Part shown: piece after piece, positions 31,935 to 47,132 of the stretch
Position numbering within the stretch: position 1 is the stretch's first letter
Layout of the letters: each line of letters starts with the position of its first letter
NCBI RefSeq assembly: GCF_024218775.1
Contig: NZ_CP100404.1
Span: 1,054,001-1,118,000, forward strand
Source: Haloarcula marina
Lineage (GTDB): Archaea > Halobacteriota > Halobacteria > Halobacteriales > Haloarculaceae
Length of the DNA: 64,000 nucleotides
Reading direction: 5' to 3'
Translations under genes and position numbers: made by a program
The notes under the pieces: model-generated
Databases searched by the model: none
What the model saw: the letters and a program-made list of their open reading frames with translations, nothing else
What the model was told of the DNA's origin: nothing

Positions 31935-32822
31935 TTAGTTTCTGAGATACGTATCGATTGCTTTCTGGTAGCCCTCGCGAAACGTCGGGTAAACGAAGTC
32001 GTACCCGAGCGAGCGGAGGCGCTCGTTCGAACAGCGCTTGCTGGTCTGAATGCGCCGGGTCGCCGTCGCCGAGAGGCTCTCGTCGGCCAGTCGCTCCGCT
32101 TTCGTCTGTTTCGGGGGGAACGGCACGTCGCACTGCTCGGCCAGCCAATCGGCGAAGGCCCACTTCTCGACGGGTTCGTCGTCGACGACCAGCACCACCT
32201 CGGCGCGGTGGTCCCCCTCCAGCAGAAACCGCACGGCTCCGGCGGCGTCGTCGCGGTGGACCATGTTGAGATAGCCCGCCGTTACCGGTCCCTCTAGATA
32301 CCGGGAGAGCCGATACCGGTCGGGACCGTACAACCCGGCGAAGCGCGCGACGCTCCCGTGGCCGCCGTAGTCGGTCGGTCGCTCGCGCGCGACGCGTTCG
32401 GCCTCCGCGAGGACTTCCGTCTTCTCGGTCTGCGGGTCCAGCGGCGTCTCTTCGTCGACCCATTCGCCGTCGTGGTCGCCGTAGACACCCGTGCTGGATG
32501 TGTAGACGAGTCGTTCGGGAGCGTCCTCGCGCGCCCAGAAGTGGTCGATAGCGGTTCGTAGACCGTCGACGTACACCTCGCGAGCGGCGTCGGCCCCCCG
32601 ACCGCCGGAACTGGCCGCGAAGACGACCCAGTCGGCGTCGGGCACGGCGGCCAGCGACTCGGCGTCTGTCACGTCGGCCTGTACCGCCTCGAACCCGGCG
32701 TCCTCGACCGCCGCGACGCCGTCCGCCGAGCGGCGGACGCCGACTACGTCGTGGTCGCCCCGCAGTTGCCGCCCGAGTTCGAGGCCGACGTACCCACACC
32801 CGAGGATAGCGACGCGCGTCAT
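31935..32822 (-). CDS. SDR-family NAD(P)-dependent epimerase-like protein
   Basis: The 295-residue protein has an N-terminal Rossmann motif VAILGCGYVGLELGRQL (GxGxxG) and the extended-SDR serine/tyrosine strand LVYTSSTGVYGDHDGEWV. A standard YxxxK active site is not evident. The C-terminal part, VAGLYGPDR-like (FAGLYGPDRYRLSRYLEG), fits YeeZ-type sugar-nucleotide epimerase relatives. The substrate is unknown. The start overlaps the stop of the gene at 32819 by 4 bases (ATGA), so the two are translationally coupled. Confidence 0.83.
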   Translation of the reverse strand: MTRVAILGCGYVGLELGRQLRGDHDVVGVRRSADGVAAVEDAGFEAVQADVTDAESLAAVPDADWVVFAASSGGRGADAAREVYVDGLRTAIDHFWAREDAPERLVYTSSTGVYGDHDGEWVDEETPLDPQTEKTEVLAEAERVARERPTDYGGHGSVARFAGLYGPDRYRLSRYLEGPVTAGYLNMVHRDDAAGAVRFLLEGDHRAEVVLVVDDEPVEKWAFADWLAEQCDVPFPPKQTKAERLADESLSATATRRIQTSKRCSNERLRSLGYDFVYPTFREGYQKAIDTYLRN

Positions 32823-33247
32823 CGCTGCTGGCTCTCGATGTAGCTGTGCAGGACGGCGAACTCACGCAGCGTCACTGGATAGCGCCCCTCTATCTTCTGT
32901 TGGATCTCCTTCGGTTCCATCTCGGTGTCGATACCCGAGGACAGCGTCTCGACGTCCATCACGGCCGTCGTCATCCCCATCAGGAGGATGTCCCGCGCCT
33001 CGGCCTCGATGGCGTCGGCGTCGGGTCGGTCGGGGTCGGTCGACAGAATCGCCGCCGCGTCGGACAGCGAGCAGTCGGCCGCGTCGCCGTCAGCGACCGC
33101 TTCGACGACGCGCTCGTCCAACCCCGTCGCTTCGACAACCGACTCGACGCCGACCGTCGCGACGGCGTCGGCGAGCACCGACTCGTAGGCCGCGAGCAAC
33201 GCCTCGGGGGTCTGCTCCCCGGCGTCGGGAAACTCCGCTCTGAGCAT
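32819..33247 (-). CDS. Conserved haloarchaeal protein, DUF5791-like
   Basis: The 142-residue protein is acidic and helical, opening MLRAEFPDAGEQTPEALLAA. The middle part, VVEATGLDERVVEAVADGD, resembles a small DNA- or ligand-binding helical unit (helix-turn-helix style), and the C-terminus contains PKEIQQKIEGRYPVTLREFA. I assign it to the DUF5791 group from memory; no function is known. It is coupled to the SDR gene by a 4-base overlap and sits 34 bases downstream of the last gene of the secretion operon. Confidence 0.7.
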   Translation of the reverse strand: MLRAEFPDAGEQTPEALLAAYESVLADAVATVGVESVVEATGLDERVVEAVADGDAADCSLSDAAAILSTDPDRPDADAIEAEARDILLMGMTTAVMDVETLSSGIDTEMEPKEIQQKIEGRYPVTLREFAVLHSYIESQQR

Positions 33248-33281: not shown

Positions 33282-36200
33282 TCACTCTCCGGGCGCTCCG
33301 GCGTCGGGCCATCCGGCGGAGGTTTCGACGGCGACACCGTCCTTGTCGCCGACGCCGCGGAGTCGCGGCGGGACGACGACTACGATGCCTGCCTCTGCCC
33401 GGAACGAGAGTCGATCGCTCGTTCCCAGTCCCTCGCGGGTCCCGTCGCCGTCGACATCGAGGCGGACGGGGTCGCCGTCGCGGACGTACGTCGTGCTCGC
33501 ACTCGGCGTCGCCGGCGTCCCGCGGTTCGCGGTGACCGCGAAGCGGGCGTACTCCCCCTCGACGGTGACCCACCAGACGTTCATCGTTATCGCCCAGTAC
33601 GCGCCCGGAACGAACGACGGGAGTATCGGCAATCCGGCGGGGAGCGTCTTCGTCCCTAACCTCTTCTCGACCAGTCGCTCCGTCTGCTCCCGACCGGCGT
33701 CGGCAAGCAGTTGCCGGGTTTGTGCCCGCGAAATCCGCCTGACCGCCGTCGCGGTCTGGTTCACGACGGGCGTCCGCGGCCGCGCGATAGGTCGCGAGAG
33801 TGCGTCCTCGGTCGCGCCGTCGAGCCGAATCCAGAGCCAGTCTCGCTCGACGAGCGACAGTCCCCGTCGCTCGGCGGTGACGCGAGCGACTCGTTCGGCG
33901 GCGGACCCGTTCGCGAGCGCCCGGCCGCGAACGCCGGTCCCGTTCCACCGCGCCGTCGCCGTCTCGACTATCTCGCGACTCCGCTGCGGTCCCGCGCTCG
34001 TCTCCTCGTGTACCGTCGTCGCCATCTGTTCGAGGACGTACGCGTTCGCGCGCTCGACCCGTCGCCGAAGGGTCGCGCGCTGTCTCGCCAACGTCTCGTT
34101 GCTGGTGTTGCGGGTCACGTTTGCCGCGCGGAGCGTGGCGGCCGCCGTCAGTAACCTGACTCGGTCGACCTGTCCCGTCCCCTCGCCGGTGACCGCCGCA
34201 GCGGCGTTGTCGTACGGGACCGTGAACAGGTTGACGTTGCGGGCGACGAGCGGCGTCTCGCTGCCCTCCAACGATGGGTGGGCGGACTCGTTCACCCGCC
34301 CGAGCGTGAGGTACTGCGGGCCGGTGTCGACCCGCGTCGTGACCGGTCCCGCAGGACTGACCGGCGCTGGCCGCGACCGGGGGATGCGCGTCTCACGGGC
34401 GGTCAACGACCGACGGAGGTCGGCGAGCGACCCACCGGTCCGGTTCGCGAGCACCCGACCGACGCGTTCGCTGGCCCCCGCGTGGTGTCGCTCACCGGCG
34501 GCGAGTCGGTCGGTGACGGCGTCGAGGTACGCGATGCGGGCGGCGACGCGCGCTTTCTGTGCGGTGCTGTCGTAGCGCGTCGGCGCGTCAACGAACGTCG
34601 CGCGTCGCTCGGCGAGTCGGTCGCGCAACTGTCCGGCGGGATTCGCGTCGAAACTTCCGACGGCACCGCGCTCGACCGTGACGTTCGTCTCCCGGACTTC
34701 TTCGCGGAGGTCACGGAGGTCCCGGTACACCCACGGCCGGAGTTCGTTGGGGTGCTCGCCGGTGACGTGGATGGCGTTCGTCCGCAATCGCCCGACTGCC
34801 GCCCGTTCGGCGACGGCGTCGCGGCCGCCCGCTCGGTCGAGTAGCTCCCGTTCCGCGCGCGGTTCGACATCCGCCAAGTTCGGGCCGCCGACGGGACTCC
34901 CGTCTCGCTCGTGGGCGGTCCTGATTCGACGGTCCGGTGCTGGCGTGTCGTCCTCGTGTCGGCCGACGAGGGCGACGCTCACGCGCCGCCGCTCGGTGCG
35001 TGCGGACGCCGTGGTCGTCTCGTCGCTGCCGTTCTCCCAGACCGCGACCCGCGTGTGTTCGACGGCGACGACGCGGCCGAAACTGTCCAGTTCGTGCCAG
35101 TCGCGAGGCACGTCCGGCCGCGGGGTCGCGTCGTCGACGACGGTCGCATCGCTGGTCCGCCGCTCGGTCAGTAGGGTCCAGTTCTCGCCCGGTCGCGTCG
35201 GTCGCGAGGGACGCCCGCCGCCGATTCGATACCCGTTCGCCACCAGCCGCGTCTGGACGGTGTACGCGTCGGCGAGCGTCGCGTCGAGGGCGTCGGGAGC
35301 GGCGACCGCTCGGAAGGCGTCGTCGGCGGTGCCGTTGACCGCGACGCGCATGGGCTCGTCGGGTTGCGGGTGGTTCCCGGGCGGCGGCGCGGTGCTGATA
35401 CTCTGCTCCGGCGGGTGGTAGGAGGTTTCGGCCAGCAGTGACTGGGCGAACTCGGTGTCCCGACTTCCCCCGACAACGTCTTCGATGCCGACCACCGCCG
35501 TCGCGTCCGTCAGCGTCCGCCGTCCGTCGGGGTCACTCCGTCCGAACGTCGACCGCTGGACGCCGAGCAACGCTCCGTTGGTCGCGAGGCTGACGTGGCG
35601 GTTCGCCACCACGTTGTCGATTGGTGCGCCGCCGAACTGCGCGCCCCCTCTCGCCCACGCGATGGGGTACAGCCGCGCGGTCAGTCGCTGGCTCAGCCCC
35701 GGTTTCGCGAGGCCGTTGTTCACCCGCCGGTCGTATCGCTGGACCTGTTGATGGAGCAGGAGCACCGGCGACTCGACGACGACGGTCGGCGAAACGTGCC
35801 GACGTGTGACGACGCGGGCGTCCCGTCGGACGGTGACGGTGACGTTCTCGACGGTGGCACGCAATCGCGTCCCGTTCGGCCCGGCCGACGCGACGGTGAC
35901 CCGCTCGATGGCTTCGCGGTACTCGGCAGTCGTCTCCACGGACGGGAGAGTCGCCGTCGCTGTCACCGAATCGCTCGTCGCCGAGACCTGGGCGAGGCGG
36001 TCCCGGACTCGCAGATAGATGCGGAGTCGGAGCGCATCGCGGAACGGCTGTGACTCGTTCAACGCGCGACCGACGGACGTGTTCGCGGTCGTGAGGACGG
36101 GGTTCGACGCGGCGCGGCGTCCCGCCGTCGCCACGCCGCCGCGCATCGCCGTCTGCGTCGCCGCCGCCGTCCGGTCGACGACGCGCTCGACCGTCGTCTC

Positions 36201-36308
36201 GGTCGGCGCTGGGTCGGGCACGAGCGTCGGCGCGAGCGTGAGACTGCTGACCAGCAGGAGGACGCCGAGCAGGGAGAACGGGACGCGTCCCCGCGTGTCG
36301 TCTCTCAT
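33282..36308 (-). CDS. Large secreted or membrane protein of the secretion/pilus-like operon
   Basis: From the ATG at 36308 the product is about 1008 residues. It opens with a short basic stretch and a hydrophobic segment (VPFSLLGVLLLVSSLTLAPTLV), a signal peptide or anchor. The long remainder is rich in Arg, Thr and Val with many N-x-S/T sites, consistent with an exterior location. Near the C-terminus are a hydrophobic stretch (LPILPSFVPGAYWAITMNVWW) and a VRLDVDGDGTREGLG segment, resembling a calcium-type loop. No catalytic motif was recognised. As the last gene of the operon and the largest product, it could be the exported or adhesive component. This is inference. Confidence 0.75.
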   Translation of the reverse strand: MRDDTRGRVPFSLLGVLLLVSSLTLAPTLVPDPAPTETTVERVVDRTAAATQTAMRGGVATAGRRAASNPVLTTANTSVGRALNESQPFRDALRLRIYLRVRDRLAQVSATSDSVTATATLPSVETTAEYREAIERVTVASAGPNGTRLRATVENVTVTVRRDARVVTRRHVSPTVVVESPVLLLHQQVQRYDRRVNNGLAKPGLSQRLTARLYPIAWARGGAQFGGAPIDNVVANRHVSLATNGALLGVQRSTFGRSDPDGRRTLTDATAVVGIEDVVGGSRDTEFAQSLLAETSYHPPEQSISTAPPPGNHPQPDEPMRVAVNGTADDAFRAVAAPDALDATLADAYTVQTRLVANGYRIGGGRPSRPTRPGENWTLLTERRTSDATVVDDATPRPDVPRDWHELDSFGRVVAVEHTRVAVWENGSDETTTASARTERRRVSVALVGRHEDDTPAPDRRIRTAHERDGSPVGGPNLADVEPRAERELLDRAGGRDAVAERAAVGRLRTNAIHVTGEHPNELRPWVYRDLRDLREEVRETNVTVERGAVGSFDANPAGQLRDRLAERRATFVDAPTRYDSTAQKARVAARIAYLDAVTDRLAAGERHHAGASERVGRVLANRTGGSLADLRRSLTARETRIPRSRPAPVSPAGPVTTRVDTGPQYLTLGRVNESAHPSLEGSETPLVARNVNLFTVPYDNAAAAVTGEGTGQVDRVRLLTAAATLRAANVTRNTSNETLARQRATLRRRVERANAYVLEQMATTVHEETSAGPQRSREIVETATARWNGTGVRGRALANGSAAERVARVTAERRGLSLVERDWLWIRLDGATEDALSRPIARPRTPVVNQTATAVRRISRAQTRQLLADAGREQTERLVEKRLGTKTLPAGLPILPSFVPGAYWAITMNVWWVTVEGEYARFAVTANRGTPATPSASTTYVRDGDPVRLDVDGDGTREGLGTSDRLSFRAEAGIVVVVPPRLRGVGDKDGVAVETSAGWPDAGAPGE

Positions 36309-36327
36309 CGGGACCACCACCTGCCGC

Positions 36328-37200
36328 TCATGCAGACCACGTCCTGACGGTGATGCTGACGGTTCCCGTCCGAACGCTCCGCGCCGCGGCGGTCGGCGAG
36401 TCGAACCGCGCTCGCAGATCCGCCGCGAGCATCGTCGTCAACCGCTCGCGCAGGCGGCGATTGAGCGCCTCGGGCGACGTCCTTTCGCTTGGACGGACCG
36501 ATTCGCCCGCGGCGGCCCCGAACCGCCGATACCTATTCGCGACGAGCGCGTCGGTCGGGTAGTCCCCGCGGAGCGCTATCCGCGTCCGGTCCGGGGGAAA
36601 GAGGCCGGTGACGACCGTCGACGCGACGACGCCCGCGACGCCGCGGTGACCGGCCACGTCCGCGGCCGACAGCGCCTGCTCTCTCGCGTCTGCCATCGGA
36701 CTGCCGACGGTGAGCGTCGCAGTCCGAACGTCGACGGCTGGCGGCGGTGTCGGTCCGACCCGAACGACGCCGCCAACCGGCGCGCCGCGATACGGTTCCC
36801 AGCGGGCGCGAACCGCCGTTCGCTGGCCCCGTCCATCGAGTCGGTCCCGCGTCGCGTTCACGACCCCGCGCTCGAAGCCCTCGCTCGCAATCGAGAGTCG
36901 CCGTTCGTCGACGGCCACCGCACTCATCGCGGCCTCGCCGAGCAGTTCCGCGACGGTCCCGTGTGCGGTTCGGCGGTGTCTGAGGGAGGGGGTGGTGACC
37001 CACTCGGGCGGGTCGCCGGCGGGGTCCAGCGCGTAGTCGACGCTGGCTGTGGTGGTCGCCAGCAGTTCCGCCCGGTCGGCCGCGGGAGTCCCGGTTTCCG
37101 GTGGGGTCACCGCCGCGGTATCGACGACAGCCGTCGCGGCCGCGCCGACCAGCAACAGGAACACCGTTACGTCGAGCACCGTGCTCGTCGCTCTGGTCAT
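36328..37200 (-). CDS. Pseudopilin-like protein of the secretion/pilus-like operon
   Basis: The 290-residue product begins MTRATSTVLDVTVFLLLVGA followed by ATAVVDTAAV, a short polar N-terminus and one hydrophobic helix like the pilins and pseudopilins. The rest is a soluble domain with TTPSLRHRRTAHGTVAELLG and Arg-rich segments. Its ATG overlaps the preceding stop (ATGA at 37197-37200), which fixes the start. No family function is known. It appears to be one of a set of haloarchaea-only proteins that travel with a T4P-type ATPase and platform protein. Confidence 0.75.
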   Translation of the reverse strand: MTRATSTVLDVTVFLLLVGAAATAVVDTAAVTPPETGTPAADRAELLATTTASVDYALDPAGDPPEWVTTPSLRHRRTAHGTVAELLGEAAMSAVAVDERRLSIASEGFERGVVNATRDRLDGRGQRTAVRARWEPYRGAPVGGVVRVGPTPPPAVDVRTATLTVGSPMADAREQALSAADVAGHRGVAGVVASTVVTGLFPPDRTRIALRGDYPTDALVANRYRRFGAAAGESVRPSERTSPEALNRRLRERLTTMLAADLRARFDSPTAAARSVRTGTVSITVRTWSA

Positions 37201-37613
37201 CGCCACACCCGTACGCTCAGTGTCCCGCGCAGAACCGTTCCCGGCGCAACTCTGACACTCACGAGTCGGTCGGCATAGGCCGCCGTCGCGGGTGGTCGAG
37301 GGCCCGCGCTCCAGCCCCGTTCAGCCTGCGTTACCTGTCTCGCCCGCCCGACACGCACCGTGACGTTGGCGTCGTAGCCAGAGGGGACGGCAGTTAGCGA
37401 CTCGCCAATCCCCTCGGGGTCCAGCACACCAACACGACTCACCCGCCGCTCGACGGCGTCCGCGGTCGGTTCGGCCGGGTTTCGGTCGGTCCCCGTCGAC
37501 GCAATCGCGCCGTCGAGTACCCCGGCGTACAGCGCCACACCAGCGGAGACGGCGAACAGCGCGACCAGCGCCGCCAGCGGTTCCGTCGCGGCCCTATCCG
37601 ACGAGCGTGACAT
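37197..37613 (-). CDS. Small pilin-like protein of the secretion/pilus-like operon
   Basis: The 138-residue product starts MSRSSDRAATEPLAALVALF and continues AVSAGVALYAGVL. The Arg-Ala-Ala-Thr-Glu stretch just before a hydrophobic helix resembles a class III (prepilin) signal, with the Glu needed for assembly. The small soluble part has YDANVTVRVGRARQVTQ and ends in strand-like SVRVAPGTVLRGTLSVRVW. I infer a pilin or pseudopilin. Cleavage by a prepilin peptidase is untested, and no such peptidase gene is in the window. Confidence 0.72.
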   Translation of the reverse strand: MSRSSDRAATEPLAALVALFAVSAGVALYAGVLDGAIASTGTDRNPAEPTADAVERRVSRVGVLDPEGIGESLTAVPSGYDANVTVRVGRARQVTQAERGWSAGPRPPATAAYADRLVSVRVAPGTVLRGTLSVRVWR

Positions 37614-38055
37614 CTACGTCCCCCCAGACGACGCGTCGAGCGGTCGCTCGATTCGGCGCTGGCCGCCAACCGGGTCCGTCAGTCTGTGCGCGTGCACACG
37701 CCTGTTCGAAGGCCAAACTCGACTCGAAAACCGTTCCCGGACGGCGGCCGTCGAGGACGGCCCGGAGGTCGCTCCCCGTGGCAGGAACGATAGCGGTGAG
37801 AAACGTCGCGTGAGCCGTGCCACCGTCGTTCCGAAGTCCGACCTCGTTGGCGGACAGTCGCCACTCCTCCGCGGAGAGGTCGCGCGTCACCGCGGAGCCT
37901 CCAGGACTCGTGGCGACTTCGTCGGCCGTCGCCGCCAGTGCGGCGGCGTCGGGCGGTGCAGCCGTAGGTAACCCGGCGACGACGCCGAAGACGGCGACGC
38001 TTGCGATGCCGAGTGCGGCCCACACGAACAGCGTCTCGACGTGGGTGTCGAACAT
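37594..38055 (-). CDS. Membrane-anchored protein of the secretion/pilus-like operon
   Basis: The 153-residue protein opens MFDTHVETLFVWAALGIASV plus AVFGVVAGLPTAAP, a short N-terminus and one hydrophobic helix. The helix is followed by a soluble part with ATFLTAIVPATGSDLRAVLD and a Cys-containing FEQACARAQTDG. The overlap of 20 bases with the next gene suggests coupled translation. The function is unknown. The layout (one anchor and an exported domain) fits a minor pilin or assembly component. Confidence 0.72.
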   Translation of the reverse strand: MFDTHVETLFVWAALGIASVAVFGVVAGLPTAAPPDAAALAATADEVATSPGGSAVTRDLSAEEWRLSANEVGLRNDGGTAHATFLTAIVPATGSDLRAVLDGRRPGTVFESSLAFEQACARAQTDGPGWRPAPNRATARRVVWGDVDVTLVG

Positions 38056-38094
38056 AGGCCCGGGTCGCCCCGGCCTCCGATTTAAACGCTCGGC

Positions 38095-39786
38095 TCAGAG
38101 TACCAGACCAGTGGCGACGGCGGCAGTGAGGTACGTCGCCGTCGCGGCACACAGCGCCAGTCCGACCCGATACCCGACGCGTGCTCTGTCCAACCCCTGT
38201 TCGAGACCGGTCGACAGCGTCGTCAGGACGACGGCGAGGACGAGACAGTACCAGCCCACGAGGGGGCCCAGCGCGGCGCTCGGCGGCGACTCGATGGGTC
38301 CGCCAGTCCCCATCGTCGCCGAGAGCGCGACTGTCGCACCCCCGATGAGCGGGCCGAACAGCGCGCCCGTGTTCGAGAGCGTGCCGGTAATCTGTGCGAG
38401 GTCACGGCGGGTCTCGCGCTCGACGGCGTCGAGTTCAGCGAGGTGGTCGCCCATCGCGGCAAGCGTCTCGCCTGCGGGCGGTCCGATGTCGGCGGCGGCC
38501 GCGAGCAGCGTCGCGGTCCGCTCCAATCTGGGACTCGGGACCGTCGAGAGCGTCCCGTACTCGCCCCGGAACGCTGTTTCGATGTCCGTATCGAGGCGTC
38601 GTTGCCGGTCGAGTGTCGCGGCGAGGAGGGTCGAGAGCGGGTCGGCCGTCACGCCGACCGCCTCCTCGAGGGCGGCTTCGACTGACTCCCCGCGGTCGAC
38701 TCGTCGCCCGACGGCGTCGAGCAAGTCCGGCAAGCCCGACTCGACGGCCGAGACGTGGTCTCGGACCGCGCTGACGGGGCGGTAGTAGACCACGAGTGCC
38801 GTTCCGGTCCCGCCTCCGAGTGCCGCGACGGCCGGTGCCCATCCGGGCGCGACGACGGCCGCAATCGTCCAACCGCCGACCGCGACGAGTCCACCGGACG
38901 CCAGTGCTCGCTCCGGCCCCGACGGTACGTCGGGGTGGTTTCGAGGCACCGTTGCCGACGGGAACGCGACCGGCCGACGACCGAGCAACCACGCGCTCGC
39001 GACGATGAGTCCGGCCGGGAGGACGAGTCCGTAGAGAACCACCAGCATCGGGGTCGTCACCGGGACACCAGCCGCGGTCACGGCCGGAAGCAGCGACACC
39101 ATCGCCAGCGGGAGCAAGACGCCGAACGCGTACAGCCCGGTCGCGGGCGCGCGGAGAGCGGCCGCGAACTGGGCCATCTCGTCGCGCGTGCCGTCGAGAA
39201 TCTGCCGACGTGCGCGTCGGAGTACCGCGTCGCGTTCCCTCGCAGGTGCGAGCGCCGCGCGCTCGACGCTCTCGAACGCCCGTTCGAGTGCCGGAAACCG
39301 GTCGCCCCACTCGTCGACGAACGTCCCGTGGCCGTCCCGTGGGGTGCCACGTGCCCGTCGTCTGTGCGCGGCCAGACGCTCCACGAGTCGACCGTCGCCC
39401 GCCCGGACCGCGAAGGCCCCCGCCCGCTCCGTCGTCGGCCACAGCCGCATCCCGAGCGCGAGTGTTGCGACCAGTGCAGGTCCCGCACCGAGGGCACGGA
39501 TGCGTCGGAGCCGTGCGGCCAGCGGTGCCCCGTAGCGTCCGAGGAGGGCGACGCCGACGGCCCCGACGAGACAGCCAGCCCCGCCGACAGTCCCGACTGG
39601 GCCGGAAACGAACCCGAGGATGGCGAGGCCACAGAGCCACGATACGGCAGCGAGGGAGTAGCTCGCGCCGAGGAGACGTTCGGGAGCCAGCGGAACCCGG
39701 AGCGTCCGGCACGCCCGTCGGTATCGCTCGGTGACCGGTATCGCCGTTGCGAGCGGAGTGGCCGACGTGGACGACTCACTCGACAC
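38095..39786 (-). CDS. Type II secretion/T4P platform protein (GspF/TadC/PilC-like)
   Basis: From the GTG at 39786 the product is 563 residues with about eight or nine hydrophobic helices in several groups. The T2SF-type cytoplasmic segments are visible (GRRVDRGESVEAALEEAVGV and ETLAAMGDHLAELDAVERET). This arrangement of two GspF domains is the archaeal PilC/FlaJ type, the inner-membrane platform that works with the ATPase. I chose the GTG because the upstream in-frame codons are Arg/Ser-rich and overlap the ATPase gene. With this start the overlap is 11 bases. Confidence 0.8.
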   Translation of the reverse strand: MSSESSTSATPLATAIPVTERYRRACRTLRVPLAPERLLGASYSLAAVSWLCGLAILGFVSGPVGTVGGAGCLVGAVGVALLGRYGAPLAARLRRIRALGAGPALVATLALGMRLWPTTERAGAFAVRAGDGRLVERLAAHRRRARGTPRDGHGTFVDEWGDRFPALERAFESVERAALAPARERDAVLRRARRQILDGTRDEMAQFAAALRAPATGLYAFGVLLPLAMVSLLPAVTAAGVPVTTPMLVVLYGLVLPAGLIVASAWLLGRRPVAFPSATVPRNHPDVPSGPERALASGGLVAVGGWTIAAVVAPGWAPAVAALGGGTGTALVVYYRPVSAVRDHVSAVESGLPDLLDAVGRRVDRGESVEAALEEAVGVTADPLSTLLAATLDRQRRLDTDIETAFRGEYGTLSTVPSPRLERTATLLAAAADIGPPAGETLAAMGDHLAELDAVERETRRDLAQITGTLSNTGALFGPLIGGATVALSATMGTGGPIESPPSAALGPLVGWYCLVLAVVLTTLSTGLEQGLDRARVGYRVGLALCAATATYLTAAVATGLVL

Positions 39787-41626
39787 GATTCTCTCCCGGA
39801 TGGGCTGTCTGGGAAGTCGAGTTCCCGGCGAACGACGCCGCTCGCCGCTGGATTTCACCGCGGACGCTCGCGTACGATTCGCCGGGGGTCGCGAGGGACT
39901 CGACGAGGTGACTCGTTCCGCGGTCGAGGCGGCCGGTCGCCGTCGCCCGGTCACCGTCGCCTCGTTCGTACAGCGGCTCGAACCCGACCTCGTCGCCGCG
40001 GTCGACGATTTCTTCGACCGTCGCGACGCCGCGACCGCCCGCTGCAGTCGGCGGGGCCAGCGTCAGGACGAGGTCCGTCGCGACGAACGCGCTTTTCGGC
40101 ACACCGAGGTCGGCGACGAGGCGTTCGCGCACGCTCTCGCCGCCGGAGCCGTGTATCGTCCCTAAGACGGCCTCGTCGCCGCTTCCGACCCGCATCGCCT
40201 CGTAGAGAACGCTCGCTTCCTCGCCCCGGACTTCGCCGACGACGAGCGCGCCCTCGCCGAGTCGGAGCGCGGTCCGCAGCGCTTCGGTCGCACTCACCGA
40301 AGGTCCGTCCCCGCTCGCAGTCCGGAGCGGTTGCACGTCTCGCCCGTCGGCCTGTAACTCCGAAACGGGGAGTTCGGGCGTGTCCTCGATGACGACCGTT
40401 CGGACCGCCCGCGGGAGTTCCCACAGGAGCGCGCCGAGGGCCGTCGTCTTTCCGGCCCCGCGCGGTCCCGCGACGAGGCAGGCGGCCCCGCGCTCGACGG
40501 CGACGGAGAGCAATCCGGCGACCGCTGAGGGAACGCTCCCGTTCTCGACCAGGTCGGCCAAGCGCCAGCGAGTGCCGTCGTGGGCACGAAACGCGAACGC
40601 GAGGCCGTCGCTCAGCGGCTCCGTCACGCCGGTGACGCGCACCTCTCTGTCGCCGACAGTCGCGGTGGCGTCGAGGGTCGGACTCGCCCGTGAGAACGCC
40701 CGGCCGCTGGTCCGGCGGAACGTCGATGCCAGTGCGCGCGCGCCGTCGTCGGTCAGTCGCACGTTCGTCCGCATCGTCTCGCCGCCGACACGCACGCGGA
40801 GGTGCGTCTCGTCCACGGGAGCGGTCGCGAACACGTCCGAGACGCGCGGGTCGGCGAACAGGTCGTCGAGAATTCCCAGTCCACGCGTGTGCTTCCGCAG
40901 GACCTCGGCGATTTCGGTCGCCGTCGCGCCGTCACCGGTCACCGCCGCGGCGGCCTCGTCGACCGTCGGCATCGAGCGGTCACCACCGGCGACCAGTCGC
41001 TCGGCGGCCGCGGCCAGCGTCGCGGCGGTCGCGGCGTCGAACTCGTGTTCGCGAGGCCGTACGTGGTACACGTCCAGCGACCCGACAGTCTCGTAGCGGC
41101 GGACGACGGCACCGCTATCGAGCGCCTGTCGGTCTCTGAGCGCCGCGTCCGCTGGGGGCTGTTCGGTCAGTCGACTGTCGCTTATCGCCGGGCCGACGTA
41201 CGGTTCGAGCGGGTCGGCCGTCGCTCGTTCGGCGAGACGAGCGAGTCCGGTCGTTGCCGCTAGTGTGGCGACGTGACCCGCCCGGCCAGTCGCTTCCGTC
41301 GCGGCCCCAAGCGGGTCGCGTCGGGCGCGTTCGGCCAGTCGGTCGTCGAGGGAGGCGACCCGCGTGGCGAAGCGAGCAGTAGCGACCAGTAGCGCCGCTC
41401 TGTCGTCGAGGTACGCCCGCTCCAGTCCGTCGCTCCGCGTCACCACGGCGTCCACCGCGTCGGTGCCGAGGGCGTCGACGACGGTTTCGAGACAGTCTGA
41501 CGAACACCCGAGTCGGCCGTCACCGGGGCAGGCGTCGGCGTCGACGGTGAGCGTCCCGCCGTCGAAGGTCGGCTGACAGCGGCAGGCGGCGGTGTCGTCT
41601 GCCTCCCGAAACCAGTCACGAAGCAT
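39776..41626 (-). CDS. Secretion/pilus assembly ATPase (GspE/PilB/TadA family)
   Basis: The 616-residue protein has a Walker A motif CLVAGPRGAGKTTALGALLW (about residue 385), the Asp-box region VVIEDTPELPVSELQ, the Walker B segment ALVVGEVRGEEASVLYEAMR and the His-box GTIHGSGGESVRERL. This is the full set for PilB/GspE motors. The first 60 residues contain a Cys cluster (ACRCQ, ACPGDGRLGCSSDC) that could bind metal, unlike most such ATPases. I chose the ATG at 41626 over a GTG eight codons upstream. It overlaps the small protein gene at 41616 by 11 bases. Confidence 0.85.
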   Translation of the reverse strand: MLRDWFREADDTAACRCQPTFDGGTLTVDADACPGDGRLGCSSDCLETVVDALGTDAVDAVVTRSDGLERAYLDDRAALLVATARFATRVASLDDRLAERARRDPLGAATEATGRAGHVATLAATTGLARLAERATADPLEPYVGPAISDSRLTEQPPADAALRDRQALDSGAVVRRYETVGSLDVYHVRPREHEFDAATAATLAAAAERLVAGGDRSMPTVDEAAAAVTGDGATATEIAEVLRKHTRGLGILDDLFADPRVSDVFATAPVDETHLRVRVGGETMRTNVRLTDDGARALASTFRRTSGRAFSRASPTLDATATVGDREVRVTGVTEPLSDGLAFAFRAHDGTRWRLADLVENGSVPSAVAGLLSVAVERGAACLVAGPRGAGKTTALGALLWELPRAVRTVVIEDTPELPVSELQADGRDVQPLRTASGDGPSVSATEALRTALRLGEGALVVGEVRGEEASVLYEAMRVGSGDEAVLGTIHGSGGESVRERLVADLGVPKSAFVATDLVLTLAPPTAAGGRGVATVEEIVDRGDEVGFEPLYERGDGDRATATGRLDRGTSHLVESLATPGESYASVRGEIQRRAASFAGNSTSQTAHPGENRVE

Positions 41627-42101
41627 CGGCTTGTACCTCCCCGTCGCCACGCTGTCGGCCGACGTGTCGGACCGTCACCACCGGCGCGCCGGACTGACGC
41701 CGGTAGCCGAAGGCGAGGCGGTGTGTGCCCGACTCTCGTAGCGTCAGCGCTTCGCCCACCGGCCGAATCTGGACCCCGACTAGCCGTTTCGTCCGGTTCG
41801 TCGCACCCCCGACTCGCCAACTGGCGACGCCGACGCCTTCGCGGGTGTGGAACCGGAGGCGACGGACGGCCGCACTCGTCCACGTTCGGGCCGGGAGCCG
41901 AATCTCGGCGACGCGCCGCGCGCCGCGGCCCCGAGTCGGGTCGTCCGTCGCGACCATCGACTGCAACCGCTCGCCGAGGGCGGTAACCTGTCGGTCCACC
42001 GCCGCGTCGGCCGCGTCGGCCCGCGCGGTCGCGAGCGGTTGTGCGGCCACTCCGAGCAACGTCGCGGCGAGCACCGTCCCGACGACGAGACGGACTATCA
42101 C
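41616..42101 (-). CDS. Small exported protein of the secretion/pilus-like operon
   Basis: The 161-residue protein starts MIVRLVVGTVLAATLLGVAA followed by QPLATARADAAD, a signal peptide or single anchor with possible cleavage after ATA or ARA. The rest is an Arg-rich strand-type domain, including LQSMVATDDPTRGRGARRVA and GVQIRPVGEALTLRESGTHR. No function is known. It overlaps the upstream gene by 4 bases (ATGA) and the ATPase gene by 11, so it is part of the same translationally coupled block. Confidence 0.72.
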   Translation of the reverse strand: MIVRLVVGTVLAATLLGVAAQPLATARADAADAAVDRQVTALGERLQSMVATDDPTRGRGARRVAEIRLPARTWTSAAVRRLRFHTREGVGVASWRVGGATNRTKRLVGVQIRPVGEALTLRESGTHRLAFGYRRQSGAPVVTVRHVGRQRGDGEVQADAS

Positions 42102-42649
42102 AGTAACGCCCGAATCCGTTCGATGACGCCGGATTCCTCCGCCGATTCTGGCGCTTTCGCGGACTCCGTCGGCGCTGCCGAGTGGTCGATTCCGCCCTCT
42201 CGGACTCCGGCGACGGCCGTCTCGGACGGCGGGTCACGGGTCGCCGGTGTCCGGTGGTGCTGGTCGCCGTCCGGCCCGCTGAACTGGTCTGGTTCGGGCG
42301 TCTGCGCGGGTCGCTCCCGCCTCTCGGGTCGGACGGTCGTTCCAGCGGACTCGTTGACCGCCGTGTCGAGACGGCGTTCGAGTCGGTCCGTCGCGGCCAG
42401 CGCCGCGTCCGCGCGCTCCTCCACGCGTTCGTTGACCGACTCGACGTTACCGACGTACCCGCGCAGGGCTTGGGTCGCCGCTTCGAGTTCCGTCGTCCGC
42501 TCGTCGATACCGGTCAGGCGTCGTTCCAGCGCGGCCACGCGGCCTTCGAGTTCCGCGAGGTCCGTGGCCTCGGGAAACTCGTGGTCGCCGTCGGTGACCG
42601 CTCGCTCGACGGTCTGTACGCGTTCCGCCAGCGTCTCTACGTCGGTCAT
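42098..42649 (-). CDS. Coiled-coil protein, first gene of the secretion/pilus-like operon
   Basis: From the ATG at 42649 the product is 183 residues. The first 110 residues are coiled coil with heptad-like Leu/Ala spacing (DLAELEGRVAALERRLTGID, ERTTELEAATQALRG). The second part is a Pro/Ser/Gly-rich linker ending in GVIERIRALL, a short amphipathic helix. The longer open frame upstream of the ATG reads like shadow DNA and was rejected. It is the promoter-proximal gene of the operon and probably a cytoplasmic scaffold or regulator. It is divergent from the gene at 42743. Confidence 0.72.
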   Translation of the reverse strand: MTDVETLAERVQTVERAVTDGDHEFPEATDLAELEGRVAALERRLTGIDERTTELEAATQALRGYVGNVESVNERVEERADAALAATDRLERRLDTAVNESAGTTVRPERRERPAQTPEPDQFSGPDGDQHHRTPATRDPPSETAVAGVREGGIDHSAAPTESAKAPESAEESGVIERIRALL

Positions 42650-42709
42650 AGGCCCGCCTGCGCCCGTCTCGGTATTTGAACCCTCGTCCGCCAGCGGCCG
42701 AGGCCGCGA

Positions 42710-42742: not shown

Positions 42743-43090
42743 GTGTCCGACAGCGACGAGGTGAAAGCGGCGCTCAGAGCGCTCGCAGACGGCGAGGAAT
42801 CGACGCCCGGCGACGCCGCTTGGGGCGAGACTGACCCCGTACCCGCCCCACGTTCGGAACCCGCTGGCGAGGCGGGCGACTACCGCGCGGTCATCGACCG
42901 AGCGATACGGGCGACGGAGGACGTCGAGGCGGCCGCCGCGTTCGTCGACTCGGTGGGTCTCGACTCGCTCGAACGCGCCGTCGAACGGGCCGAGCGAGAA
43001 GTCAGCGGGCGCGCCCGGGAGGGTCGGGACGCGCTCGCCGCCTTCCAGCGGTTCCGGGCGGCCGCGGGTGGTCAGGAGCGTGACGGGTGA
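42743..43090 (+). CDS. Small acidic helical protein upstream of mre11-rad50
   Basis: The 115-residue protein starts at a GTG (MSDSDEVKAALRALADGEES). After a Pro/Ser-rich linker it has a helical domain, DYRAVIDRAIRATEDVEAAA and SLERAVERAEREVSGRAREG. No membrane segment or motif is known to me. It runs in the same direction as mre11 with a gap of 75 bases, and from memory a similar small gene occupies this place in other haloarchaea. It may be co-expressed with Mre11-Rad50, but a direct role is not shown. Confidence 0.7.
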   Translation: MSDSDEVKAALRALADGEESTPGDAAWGETDPVPAPRSEPAGEAGDYRAVIDRAIRATEDVEAAAAFVDSVGLDSLERAVERAEREVSGRAREGRDALAAFQRFRAAAGGQERDG

Positions 43091-43165
43091 GTCTCGTGAG
43101 GCGACGTTCCACTTCCACCGTGGTCGCGACACCTCTTTAGGAGACGCTGGCATACGACCTGACAG

Positions 43166-44437
43166 ATGACACGGGTGATACACACCGGCGATACGCACAT
43201 CGGGTATCAGCAGTACCACGCACCCGAGCGCCGGGCGGATTTCCTCGACGCGTTCCGACAGGTGGTCAGCGATGCCGTCGACGACGACGTGGGGGCCGTC
43301 GTTCACGCGGGGGACCTGTTCCACGACCGTCGGCCGACGCTGACCGACATCATGGGGACCCTCGACGTGCTGAAGGACCTGGACGCCGCCGGGATTCCGT
43401 TTCTTGCCGTCGTGGGAAATCACGAGGCCAAGCGGGACGCACAGTGGCTGGACCTCTACGAGCGACTCGGTCTGGCGACGCGCCTGGGGGAGGAACCGAC
43501 CGTCGTCGGCGACACGGCCTTCTACGGACTGGACTTCGTCCCGCGCTCGAAGCGCGACGACCTCGACTACGAGTTTGCGCCCCACGACGCCGACCACGCC
43601 GCACTGGTCACGCACGGCCTCTTTCAGCCGTTCGACCACGGCGACTGGGACGCCGCCGAAGTCCTCGCGGAGTCGTCGGTCCACTTCGACGCGATGCTTC
43701 TCGGCGACAACCACAAGCCCGGCAAACAGGAGATAGACGGCCAGTGGGTCACCTACTGCGGGTCTACCGAGCGCGCGAGCGCGAGCGAACGCGAGGACCG
43801 CGGCTACAACATCGTCACGTTCGACGAGACGACCCACATCACCCGCCGCGGTCTCGACACGCGCGAGTTCGTCTTCGTCGACGTGGAACTGGCCGAGAGC
43901 GAGGGCGTCGAACGCGTCCGGAGCAAAGTCGGCCAACACGACCTCGAAGGAGCGGTGGTCGTCGTCAGCATCGACGGGGACGGGGACCCCATCGCCCCGG
44001 CCAGCGTCGAGGAGTACGCGCTGGAGGCGGGCGCACTCGTCGCCCGCGTCACCGACCACCGGGAACTGAGCGCGGACGAGCGCGAGACCACGGTGAGTTT
44101 CGCCGACCCGGACGACGCCGTCACCGAACGCGTGCGCGAACTCGGCTTGAGCGGGGCCGCCCGCGACATCGACGAGACGGTCAGAGCGTCGAAAGTCGCC
44201 GACGCGAACGTCGCCGATACCGTCGAAGACCGGATTCGAGAACTCTTAGAGGAAGACCCCGATTCGTTGGCCGGAAGCGGCGAGGGCGACGATGCGGAGA
44301 CGGCCGACCACGCCGCGACGACGGAAGCCGACGGGGGCGAAGCGGGCTCACCGAACGGGCAGTCCGAGACCGCACCGGCGGCGTCGGCCGACGGCGGCGA
44401 CGGCGAGGACCAATCCAGCATGGAGGAGTTCCTGTGA
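43166..44437 (+). CDS. mre11: DNA double-strand break repair nuclease Mre11
   Basis: The 423-residue protein has the metallophosphoesterase motifs in order: IHTGDTHIGYQQYH at the start, VVHAGDLFHDRRPT, VVGNHEAKR, then LVTHGLFQPFDHG and MLLGDNHKPGKQ, which carry the two-metal site. The C-terminal third is a capping and Rad50-binding region, ending in an acidic low-complexity tail (GEGDDAETADHAATTEADGG and so on). Mre11 binds Rad50 and processes DNA ends; in Haloferax it restrains recombination at breaks. The Rad50 gene follows 13 bases later. Confidence 0.95.
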   Translation: MTRVIHTGDTHIGYQQYHAPERRADFLDAFRQVVSDAVDDDVGAVVHAGDLFHDRRPTLTDIMGTLDVLKDLDAAGIPFLAVVGNHEAKRDAQWLDLYERLGLATRLGEEPTVVGDTAFYGLDFVPRSKRDDLDYEFAPHDADHAALVTHGLFQPFDHGDWDAAEVLAESSVHFDAMLLGDNHKPGKQEIDGQWVTYCGSTERASASEREDRGYNIVTFDETTHITRRGLDTREFVFVDVELAESEGVERVRSKVGQHDLEGAVVVVSIDGDGDPIAPASVEEYALEAGALVARVTDHRELSADERETTVSFADPDDAVTERVRELGLSGAARDIDETVRASKVADANVADTVEDRIRELLEEDPDSLAGSGEGDDAETADHAATTEADGGEAGSPNGQSETAPAASADGGDGEDQSSMEEFL

Positions 44438-44450
44438 GGGGTGAGCGCTG

Positions 44451-47132
44451 ATGCGGTTCCAGCGAGTCGCGATGGAGAACTTCAAATGCTACGACGACGC
44501 CGACCTGCGGTTGGACCCCGGGGTCACCGTCATCCACGGCCTGAACGGGAGCGGGAAGTCCTCGCTGTTGGAGGCCTGTTTCTTCGCCCTCTACGGGTCG
44601 AAGGCCATCGACGAGACGCTGGAAGACGTGGTGACCATCGGGGCCGACGACTGCACGGTCGACCTGTGGTTCAGCCACGGCGGCGGCGAGTACCACATCA
44701 CGCGGCGGGTGCGCAACACCGGCGAGCGCGCCTCGCACGCCAAGTGCGTGATGGAGACGCCCGAGGGCGACACGTACGAGGGTGCGCGAGCGGTCCGTCG
44801 GCGGGTCACCGAACTCCTGCGGATGGACAGCGAGGCGTTCGTCAACTGCGCGTACGTCCGGCAGGGCGAGGTGAACAAACTCATCAACGCCTCGCCGAGC
44901 GACCGGCAGGACATGCTGGACGACTTGCTCCAACTCGGGAAACTGGAGACCTACCGCGAACGAGCGAGCGATGCCCGCGTCGGCGTCAAGCGCGTCCGCG
45001 ACGGCAAGTACGATTCGCTGTCGACGCTCGACGACCAGATAGCCGAGAAAGAGGCGAAGGACCTCCACGAGCGACTGAACGGGCTGGAGACCGAGCGAAA
45101 CGAGATACAGGAGAAAATCGACAACTTCGAGCGACAGCGCGAAGCGGCCACAGAGACGCTGGAGAACGCGAAGTCGGTCTTGGAAGAACACGAGGAGCGA
45201 CAGGCCGAACTGTCCGAGTTGGCGAACGACATCGAGGAACTGGAAGGAGATATCGCCGAGGCCGAACGGGAGCGCGAGCGGTTGCAGGACCGCATTTCGG
45301 AACTGAAAGCCGAACGCGACTCGCTGGAAGAGGACCGCGACGAGGCGGTGGCCGAGACGGACCTCGACGCGGCGGACCCGGCGGCGGTCGAGGACCGCCT
45401 GGAAACCCTCGACGACCGGGCCGACGACCTCCGCTCGCGCATCGAGTCCCAGCGCGTCGAAGCGCAGAAACACAGCGGCGACGCCGACTCGCTCGAATCG
45501 CAGGCGGAGGACCTCGAAGCACGTGCGGCCAACAAACGACAGACGGCCGACGACCTCGAATCGGCCCTTGACGACGCCCGCGAGACTATCGCCGACCGGC
45601 GGTCGAAACTCGACGATATCGACGCGGACATCGAGGAACTCGAAACGACGTTCGAGGGGAGCGAGACGACCCGCGAGGAAGCGACGGACCACCGAGATAC
45701 CGTCGCTGACGAACTCGACGAGGCCCGACAGCGCGTGACCGAGTTGGAAACGAAACTCCGGAGCGAACGCGAATCGCTCGAAGAAGCCGAAAAACTCCTC
45801 GACGCCGGGAAATGCCCCGAGTGCGGGCAGGACGTGACTGACTCGCCGCACGTCGAGTCCATCGAAGCCGACCGGGAGCGCGTGGCCGAACTGGAGTCGA
45901 CCCTGTCGGCGGCCCGTGAGACGGTCGAGTCGCTACAGACCGACCTGGAACGCGCCGAGTCGCTGGCCGACGCCGCCGACCGGTTGGCGACGCTGGAACA
46001 GAACCGCGAGAACGTCGTCCAACTCGTCGAGGAGAAGGAGTCGAGCATCGAGGCCGACGAGGAGCGAATCGAACAACTGCGCGAGGACGCCGACGAACTA
46101 GCCGAGGAAGCAGCACAGAAGCGCGAGGCGGCGGCGGAAGCGAACGAACGGGCCGCGGAGTGCCGGTCGGTCATCGGCGAGTGCAACCAAGAACACCAAC
46201 AGGTCAAGCAGTCGATTCAGCGACTGGAACGCCTCGCCGAGGTCATCGACGCTATCGACGACCACGAGCGCGAACTCGACCAACTCCGGGAGAAGCGGTC
46301 CCAAGCCGCGGAGATGAACGACCAGCGACGCGACCGACTCGCCGAGAAGCGCGAGCAGAAACAGGAGTTGGCCGAACAGGTCGACGAGTCGCGAATCGAG
46401 GAGGCCCGCGACGACAGGCAGCGCGCGGCCGACTATATCGAACAGGTCGACCCGCGACTCGACGAACTCCGCGAGAAGCGCGACGACCGACAGAGCGCCA
46501 TCGGCGGCGTCAAGAACGAAATCGAGGAACTGGAAGGACTGCGGGAACGGCGCGAGAACCTCGCCGAGTCGCTGTCGAAACTCGACTCGCTATACGAGGA
46601 GGCCCAGCAGTTACAGGAGATGTACGGCGCGCTCCGGGCGGAACTGCGCCAGCGGAACGTCGAGACGCTCGAACGAATGCTCAACGAGACGTTCTCGCTC
46701 GTCTATCAGAACGACTCCTACTCCCACATCGAACTCGACGGCGAGTATCAGTTGACCGTGTTCCAGAAGGACGGCGAACCGCTGGAACCCGAACAGCTAT
46801 CCGGCGGCGAGCGCGCGCTGTTCAACCTCAGCCTGCGGTGTGCCATCTACCGACTGCTCGCGGAGGGCATCGAGGGGGCCGCGCCGATGCCCCCGCTCAT
46901 CCTCGACGAACCGACCGTGTTCCTCGACTCGGGCCACGTCACGCAACTGCTGGACCTGATACAGTACATGCGCGACGACGTGGGCGTCGAGCAGATTCTC
47001 GTCGTCAGCCACGACGACGAACTCGTCGGGGCGGCCGACGACCTCGTCCGAGTGGAGAAAGACGCCACCTCGAACCGGTCGCACGTCGACCGCGTGGACC
47101 AAATCGAGGAGACGATTGCGGAACTGGCCTGA
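44451..47132 (+). CDS. rad50: DNA double-strand break repair ATPase Rad50
   Basis: The 893-residue protein has the N-terminal Walker A GLNGSGKSSLLEACFFALYG. A long antiparallel coiled coil (about residues 170-720) has the zinc hook GKCPECGQDV near its middle (CxxC at residue 457). The C-terminal ABC signature LSGGERALFNLSLRCAIYRL and Walker B LILDEPTVFLDSG close the ATPase. Rad50 bridges DNA ends with Mre11; zinc-hook dimerisation is known from archaeal structures. The gene follows mre11 in the same operon, and the next gene is convergent. Confidence 0.96.
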   Translation: MRFQRVAMENFKCYDDADLRLDPGVTVIHGLNGSGKSSLLEACFFALYGSKAIDETLEDVVTIGADDCTVDLWFSHGGGEYHITRRVRNTGERASHAKCVMETPEGDTYEGARAVRRRVTELLRMDSEAFVNCAYVRQGEVNKLINASPSDRQDMLDDLLQLGKLETYRERASDARVGVKRVRDGKYDSLSTLDDQIAEKEAKDLHERLNGLETERNEIQEKIDNFERQREAATETLENAKSVLEEHEERQAELSELANDIEELEGDIAEAERERERLQDRISELKAERDSLEEDRDEAVAETDLDAADPAAVEDRLETLDDRADDLRSRIESQRVEAQKHSGDADSLESQAEDLEARAANKRQTADDLESALDDARETIADRRSKLDDIDADIEELETTFEGSETTREEATDHRDTVADELDEARQRVTELETKLRSERESLEEAEKLLDAGKCPECGQDVTDSPHVESIEADRERVAELESTLSAARETVESLQTDLERAESLADAADRLATLEQNRENVVQLVEEKESSIEADEERIEQLREDADELAEEAAQKREAAAEANERAAECRSVIGECNQEHQQVKQSIQRLERLAEVIDAIDDHERELDQLREKRSQAAEMNDQRRDRLAEKREQKQELAEQVDESRIEEARDDRQRAADYIEQVDPRLDELREKRDDRQSAIGGVKNEIEELEGLRERRENLAESLSKLDSLYEEAQQLQEMYGALRAELRQRNVETLERMLNETFSLVYQNDSYSHIELDGEYQLTVFQKDGEPLEPEQLSGGERALFNLSLRCAIYRLLAEGIEGAAPMPPLILDEPTVFLDSGHVTQLLDLIQYMRDDVGVEQILVVSHDDELVGAADDLVRVEKDATSNRSHVDRVDQIEETIAELA

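Follow-up and report, generated by a model that had tools for sequence, protein, structure and literature searches.

A probable pilB2/C2 type IV pilus-type locus of Haloarcula marina and its prepilin-like surface protein of about 1000 residues

Two descriptions of archaeal type IV pilus-type systems come closest to the locus considered here. Subclade 4F (Makarova, Koonin and Albers 2016, PMC4858521) has an assembly ATPase of the archaeal VirB11/FlaI type, often marked by an extra Cys-rich domain at its N-terminus, although this domain is not exclusive to the subclade; the system also occurs in methanogens. The pilB2/C2 regulon around cetZ2 comprises pilB, pilC, several small predicted pilins and a predicted surface protein, and the cetZ2 neighbourhood also holds an epimerase and an exopolyphosphatase-related gene, in Haloferacales and Halobacteriales (PMC9856176). 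Here we analyse a 64,000-nucleotide stretch of the Haloarcula marina genome, referred to as the window (assembly GCF_024218775.1, contig NZ_CP100404.1, positions 1,054,001 to 1,118,000), whose minus strand carries eight tightly packed genes, g1 to g8, at 33282-42649. The locus is probably the pilB2/C2 type IV pilus-type system of haloarchaea (subclade 4F), which is already catalogued and not new. We draw this identification from the family assignments, the cysteine-bearing N-terminus of the ATPase, the divergent tubulin-family neighbour in many related loci, and the matching gene order.

The genes, with their family assignments and the promoter element discussed below, are as follows.

42098-42649, minus strand: g1, 183 residues, DUF7310 coiled-coil protein (Pfam PF23991, E=7e-30)
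41616-42101, minus strand: g2, 161 residues, DUF7311 small exported or anchored protein (PF23993, E=5e-29)
39776-41626, minus strand: g3, 616 residues, PilB2-type (TadA/FlaI-like) assembly ATPase (PF00437, T2SSE, E=7e-17)
38095-39786, minus strand: g4, 563 residues, divergent TadC/PilC-type membrane platform (PF00482, below the gathering cutoff)
38080-38086, minus strand: TATA box TTTAAAT, about 31 nt before the g5 start
37594-38055, minus strand: g5, 153 residues, DUF7283 membrane-anchored protein (PF23954, E=5e-42)
37197-37613, minus strand: g6, 138 residues, DUF7285 pilin-like protein, start DRA/ATEPLAAL (PF23956, E=2e-30; the slash here and below marks the candidate cleavage point)
36328-37200, minus strand: g7, 290 residues, DUF7284 pilin-like protein, start TRA/TSTVLD (PF23955, E=3e-84)
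33282-36308, minus strand: g8, 1008 residues from ATG, with a GTG at 36320 as an alternative start; DUF7286, start DTRG/RVPFSL (PF23957, 1079 bits over the full length)

Neighbouring genes overlap by 4-20 bp, except for gaps of 39 bp between g4 and g5 and 19 bp between g7 and g8. An earlier reading of the letters alone (the original prediction) had proposed an overlapping or nearly touching eight-gene operon running from 42649 to 33282 and built on a type IV pilus-type ATPase and platform. All eight open reading frames are indeed present, and the Pfam families and the gene order agree with that proposal. The six proteins that it called uncharacterised all match Pfam DUF families (7310, 7311, 7283, 7285, 7284 and 7286).

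The closest solved relatives of g3 are 2oap, a type II secretion ATPase, FlaI (4ii7) and CpaF, and its N-terminal domain carries a C-x-C...C...C pattern in which C15, C17, C33 and C45 are invariant in 19 orthologues. Read by eye, the other six PF00437 proteins of the genome have no such cysteine pattern at the N-terminus. The platform g4 follows g3 in nearly all loci; the window copy scores 21.9 bits against PF00482 (T2SSF), below the gathering cutoff of 25.2, and 7 of 15 g4 orthologues match this family at E<=0.01, with a best E of 3.6e-5.

The arrangement is widely conserved. DUF7286 was found in 89 of 116 sampled Halobacteria genomes, about three quarters, and the surrounding region was taken from most of the 89. 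When 81 loci, the window included, were searched with profiles built from the window genes, each of g1 to g8 was recovered in 72 to 81 of them (g1 in 72), with order and strand nearly always the same. The same order holds in most of a second set of 78 named loci, which overlaps the first in species and extends from Haloarcula to Haloferax, Halorubrum, Halobellus, Haladaptatus, Natronomonas and Haloquadratum. Because the same genes recur in the same order in most loci, the arrangement is not due to chance; the unknown genes stay with the ATPase across Halobacteria, as the original prediction had expected. DUF7284 occurs in 85 genomes, every one of them among the 89 that are positive for DUF7286; the remaining four comprise one divergent copy that the profiles still detect (L079) and three decayed copies. 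For relatives of g8, a contig scan with a single sequence gave 0, its patterns being too specific, and an alignment-based scan gave 179. The locus is one of the commonest type IV pilus-type systems of Halobacteria. One genome (G058) also holds a second operon copy that is more distant (L085), and decayed remnants, with DUF7286 fragments and no ATPase, are present at L087, L088 and L098 (G067, G012 and G056, respectively).

The ATPase and DUF7286 are also linked across genomes. We searched 31 genomes with a profile of the g3 ATPase. All 14 genomes with the full DUF7286 module carry an ATPase orthologue (365-917 bits), and in 11 non-haloarchaeal genomes and two haloarchaea (G033, G069) this orthologue is unlinked from the module. 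The 14 haloarchaea that lack DUF7286, together with three that have decayed copies, contain only ATPase paralogues, at 163.5 bits or less; one of these genomes, G044, retains a 130-bit N-terminal fragment of the ATPase. Thus, the two co-occur even when unlinked and are lost together, a pattern that is strong but does not amount to a formal test, as the 31 genomes were picked by their DUF7286 status and are related.

The largest protein of the operon begins as pilus subunits do. Archaeal prepilin peptidases require G, A or S at position -1 and a charged residue at -2, ahead of a hydrophobic segment (PMC4371748). We counted, among unique sequences, an R or K followed by G, A or S just before or at the hydrophobic segment; random windows of equal length within the same proteins give this motif in 26-35% of cases. 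It is present in 138 of 139 g8 (DUF7286) sequences, the most constant of all, where the conserved start D-x-R-[GA]-R-V-P-F-A-L precedes a hydrophobic stretch, and in 133 of 139 g6 (DUF7285) sequences. For g7 (DUF7284) the count is 74 of 140, the window copy among them, and for g5 (DUF7283) an R/K[GAS] before the hydrophobic segment occurs in 0 of 137. The window copy of g2 (DUF7311) has no prepilin-type site, and the count of 57 of 125 for this family carries no meaning, since the scanned stretch extends past the start codon on its upstream side. The original prediction had named, as a test, processing sites on the three small pilin-like proteins. This test holds for DUF7285, holds in part for DUF7284 and fails for DUF7283, so that two small proteins have such a start, and the giant g8 has one as well. 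Since g8 starts like pilus subunits, the machine probably handles it as cargo. The idea that g8 is a plain Sec-secreted S-layer protein was considered and dropped after the N-terminal alignment.

The DUF7284 proteins of Haloferax and Halorubrum (e.g., L050, L157 and L164) start with (M/V)TSTVLD or similar, without an R[GA] leader. Translation there appears to begin at the would-be mature N-terminus, the leader being lost and the hydrophobic segment kept. The window was said to contain no prepilin peptidase, which is correct; the genome has one A24-family enzyme, a single PF01478 match at C1:42839-43216, outside the window. An unlinked prepilin peptidase is usual for archaeal pili.

The original prediction had noted a signal and many N-x-S/T sites in g8, and the surface proteins do look exported. 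In g8 there are 16 such sequons, compared with 4.9 in shuffles of its own residues, and none of 2000 shuffles reaches 16. Its orthologues average 11.1 sequons against 3.7 expected, and there is little or no excess in the ATPase (1.03 versus 0.71) or the platform (0.24 versus 0.31). This excess argues for, without showing, an extracellular, N-glycosylated g8. AlphaFold2 models built from 58 and 67 aligned sequences for g7 and g8, respectively, have a pLDDT of 90.2 and pTM of 0.84 for g7, with a predicted folded exterior domain of about 250 residues, and a pLDDT of 84.8 and pTM of 0.74 for g8. Foldseek returned no significant match in the PDB for either model, and searches of solved chains with the g7 and g8 profiles gave only chance-level or implausible ribosomal-protein matches. 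In addition, g1 lacks an N-terminal hydrophobic segment in its sequence and is probably cytoplasmic.

Upstream sequences suggest that g1-g4 and g5-g8 are transcribed as separate units. Of 136 unique orthologous regions upstream of g5, 110 contain a TATA-like box at about 31 nt from the start codon, and none was found before g2-g4 or g6-g8. Conservation of the promoter region runs on to the g5 start codon, a pattern typical of leaderless transcripts, and a separate leaderless promoter for g5-g8 is probable. Upstream of g1, a TATA-like box is located at 42673-42680 in the window and is found in at least 33 of 123 relatives. The split between g1-g4 and g5-g8 loosely matches the division of the module outside Halobacteria; two divergent haloarchaeal loci, L086 and L091, split instead between g5 and g6. 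In these two, g5-g4-g3-g2 lie on one strand and face away from g6-g7-g8 on the other.

Methanosarcina acetivorans also carries DUF7286, as do members of further families of the phylum. In five loci that carry the module (L191-L194 and L198) the order is g2, a gene x, g6 and g7, with g8 next or nearby and no adjoining g3 or g4. The g2 proteins of haloarchaea and of these loci are homologous (hhalign probability 96.5, E=1e-9), and the non-haloarchaeal one has a prepilin-type site. Gene x occupies the g5 position and has no detectable homology to g5 (hhalign probability 1.4); homology tests of g5 with g6 and with the non-haloarchaeal g2 failed as well. Because of these failures we treat g5 as specific to haloarchaea, and DUF7283 exceeds its cutoff only in Halobacteria. 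Read by eye in the five loci, most of the five module proteins have prepilin-type starts (for example, DDRA/RVPFVAIG, DDRA/YSTTVD, DDRG/VTEPYTD, DDRG/VDYGVL and DEKG/ADFLGM), and several have S or another uncharged residue at -2. A sarcinarray/MAST-domain gene (TIGR04209) follows g8 in the loci tested. From the Methanosarcina control and the sarcinarray proteins we infer that the non-haloarchaeal carriers are methanogen-type. The module adjoins sarcinarray/MAST-domain proteins (TIGR04209/TIGR04204) at L191:8085-14984, L192:9576-15560, L193:8073-14706 (not scanned with that library) and L194:6424-15461, and we found no such link in the literature consulted on these systems.

In Halobacteria the conserved string extends downstream of g8, usually with genes for DUF5791, an epimerase-like protein and a DHH-family protein. 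In the window the first two are:

32819-33247, minus strand: d1, DUF5791, directly downstream of g8 (PF19104, E=2e-48); its accessory role is uncertain
31935-32822, minus strand: d2, NAD-dependent epimerase-like protein (PF01370/PF13460), a marker of the cetZ2/pilB2 neighbourhood

The description of arCOG03095 fits d2. Of the 78 named loci, 47 contain a tubulin-family gene, almost always next to g1 in divergent orientation, with the epimerase downstream; these tubulin-family genes are always closest to one and the same CetZ of the window genome. In the Haloarcula/Halomicroarcula lineage, the window included, cetZ is not beside the operon; the CetZ gene that matches best is about 112 kb distant. 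The usual divergent cetZ position is occupied at 42743-47132 on the plus strand by a small open reading frame, u0, a Mre11-like phosphoesterase gene and a Rad50-like ATPase gene. In Halorubrum these three genes are downstream of the operon instead.

The best-supported account of these observations is a type IV pilus-type machine with a giant glycoprotein-like subunit among its dedicated substrates. Sec would insert g6, g7 and g8 into the membrane by their N-terminal hydrophobic segments, and the peptidase encoded elsewhere would cleave them after R-G/A. The g3 ATPase and g4 platform may then drive these pilin-like proteins out of the membrane in a small assembly. Its main exposed part would be the glycosylated g8 exterior of about 960 residues, which would serve as a tip or as a surface adhesin or display protein. 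In this scheme g2 and g5, which have no cleavage site, would be partners anchored in the membrane, and the coiled-coil protein g1 would work in the cytoplasm as a regulator or scaffold. A shaft could come from a PilA-family subunit encoded elsewhere, as proposed for subclade 4F (PMC4858521).

Several points weigh against the assignment to a pilus-type system of subclade 4F. The clade membership of the ATPase is taken from domain layout and context and not from a tree with reference sequences, and the family match of the platform is weak. In the open-access literature searched we found no experimental work on this system and no demonstration of a filament, of cleavage or of a phenotype. No cognate major pilin was identified; there is none in the operon, and stand-alone genes elsewhere (arCOG02981, arCOG10216) were not searched. 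Moreover, the g7 and g8 models consist of a short N-terminal helix, a low-confidence break and a folded exterior, and the first helix of a pilin is long. Because the helix is short and broken, neither protein looks like the core subunit of a filament. Such helices, and the lack of a PilA-type major pilin look-alike in the operon, would suit a pseudopilus-type secretion or display device, in which a short g6/g7/g8 pseudopilus presents g8, or pushes it or other proteins, through the S-layer; the sarcinarray/MAST proteins behind the non-haloarchaeal module could be its cargo or partners. However, the genes for PilA pilins often lie elsewhere, and different archaeal machines can use the same pilins (PMC4858521, PMC6491452); no secreted substrate is known. 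We regard this device as a doubtful, if serious, contender. We would call it rather unlikely that the machine makes no ordinary pilus at all and instead assembles a complex of ancestrally pilin-like proteins that includes the glycoprotein of about 1000 residues. On that account translation of the haloarchaeal g2 and, in some lineages, g7 begins at the mature N-terminus or close to it, so that these proteins may not need the prepilin peptidase, in contrast to the non-haloarchaeal relatives, in which all five module proteins have prepilin-type starts.

Comparison with Sulfolobus raises the idea of a bindosome-like assembly, in which a type IV pilus-type ATPase arrays large proteins with pilin signals at the surface. 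The Sulfolobus subunits are several times the size of pilins and have pilin-type sites (PMC4371748), and g8 combines both properties. Nevertheless, no solved fold or chain matches g8, which leaves a substrate-binding domain without support, and g3 scores 60 bits against the bindosome ATPase model NF053672, whose cutoff is 1000; we regard this assembly as improbable. A haloarchaeal secretion system that is new and unlike the catalogued archaeal pili, which the original prediction had raised as a possibility, could appeal to two surface proteins, g7 and g8, with confident yet unmatched folds, and to the open-access literature searched, in which we found no study naming these DUF families. Yet context, gene order and ATPase features all match a catalogued archaeal variant, subclade 4F or pilB2/C2, and the module reaches beyond Halobacteria, with the surface module and an orthologous ATPase both present in other families of the phylum, Methanosarcina included. 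We therefore consider a new system highly improbable and retain the pilB2/C2 assignment.

For the pilB2/C2 system, the analysis yields three new predictions. The prepilin peptidase and the machine would take the 1000-residue protein itself as a substrate, the surface module would be transcribed from a promoter of its own, and the ATPase and DUF7286 would be retained or lost as a pair even where they are not linked. Haloferax volcanii has DUF7283, DUF7284 and DUF7286, and the predictions can be tested there directly.

Compared with the haloarchaeal adhesion pili assembled by PilB3/C3 from PilA pilins, the locus is similar in its ATPase/platform pair, in a peptidase encoded elsewhere and in processing sites ahead of the hydrophobic segment (PMC6491452, PMC4371748). 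The PilB3/C3 ATPase is placed in clade 2 in the literature, a different clade from that of g3, and the PilA pilins are small with a near-identical hydrophobic segment, whereas g6, g7 and g8 have no segment in common with one another. The Sulfolobus bindosome shares with the locus a type IV pilus-type ATPase and large surface proteins with pilin-type signals, but its subunits are substrate-binding proteins, to which g8 has no such similarity. The gene set of the pilB2/C2-cetZ2 regulon is like that of the window, except that cetZ is not adjacent in the Haloarcula/Halomicroarcula lineage. The likeness to subclade 4F (PMC4858521) extends to the Cys-domain ATPase, the TadC-like platform, small pilin-like proteins, a large surface protein, an intracellular coiled-coil protein specific to halobacteria and, in Halobacteria, a gene of the FtsZ family close by. 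Likeness to the arCOGs listed for this subclade is by description only, and g1 is likely to be arCOG07564, matched in the same way and not by identifier. Two differences stand out: a PilA-family major pilin is proposed for subclade 4F, whereas there is none within this operon, and the large protein is called S-layer-like in that description, whereas g8 has a prepilin-type N-terminus.

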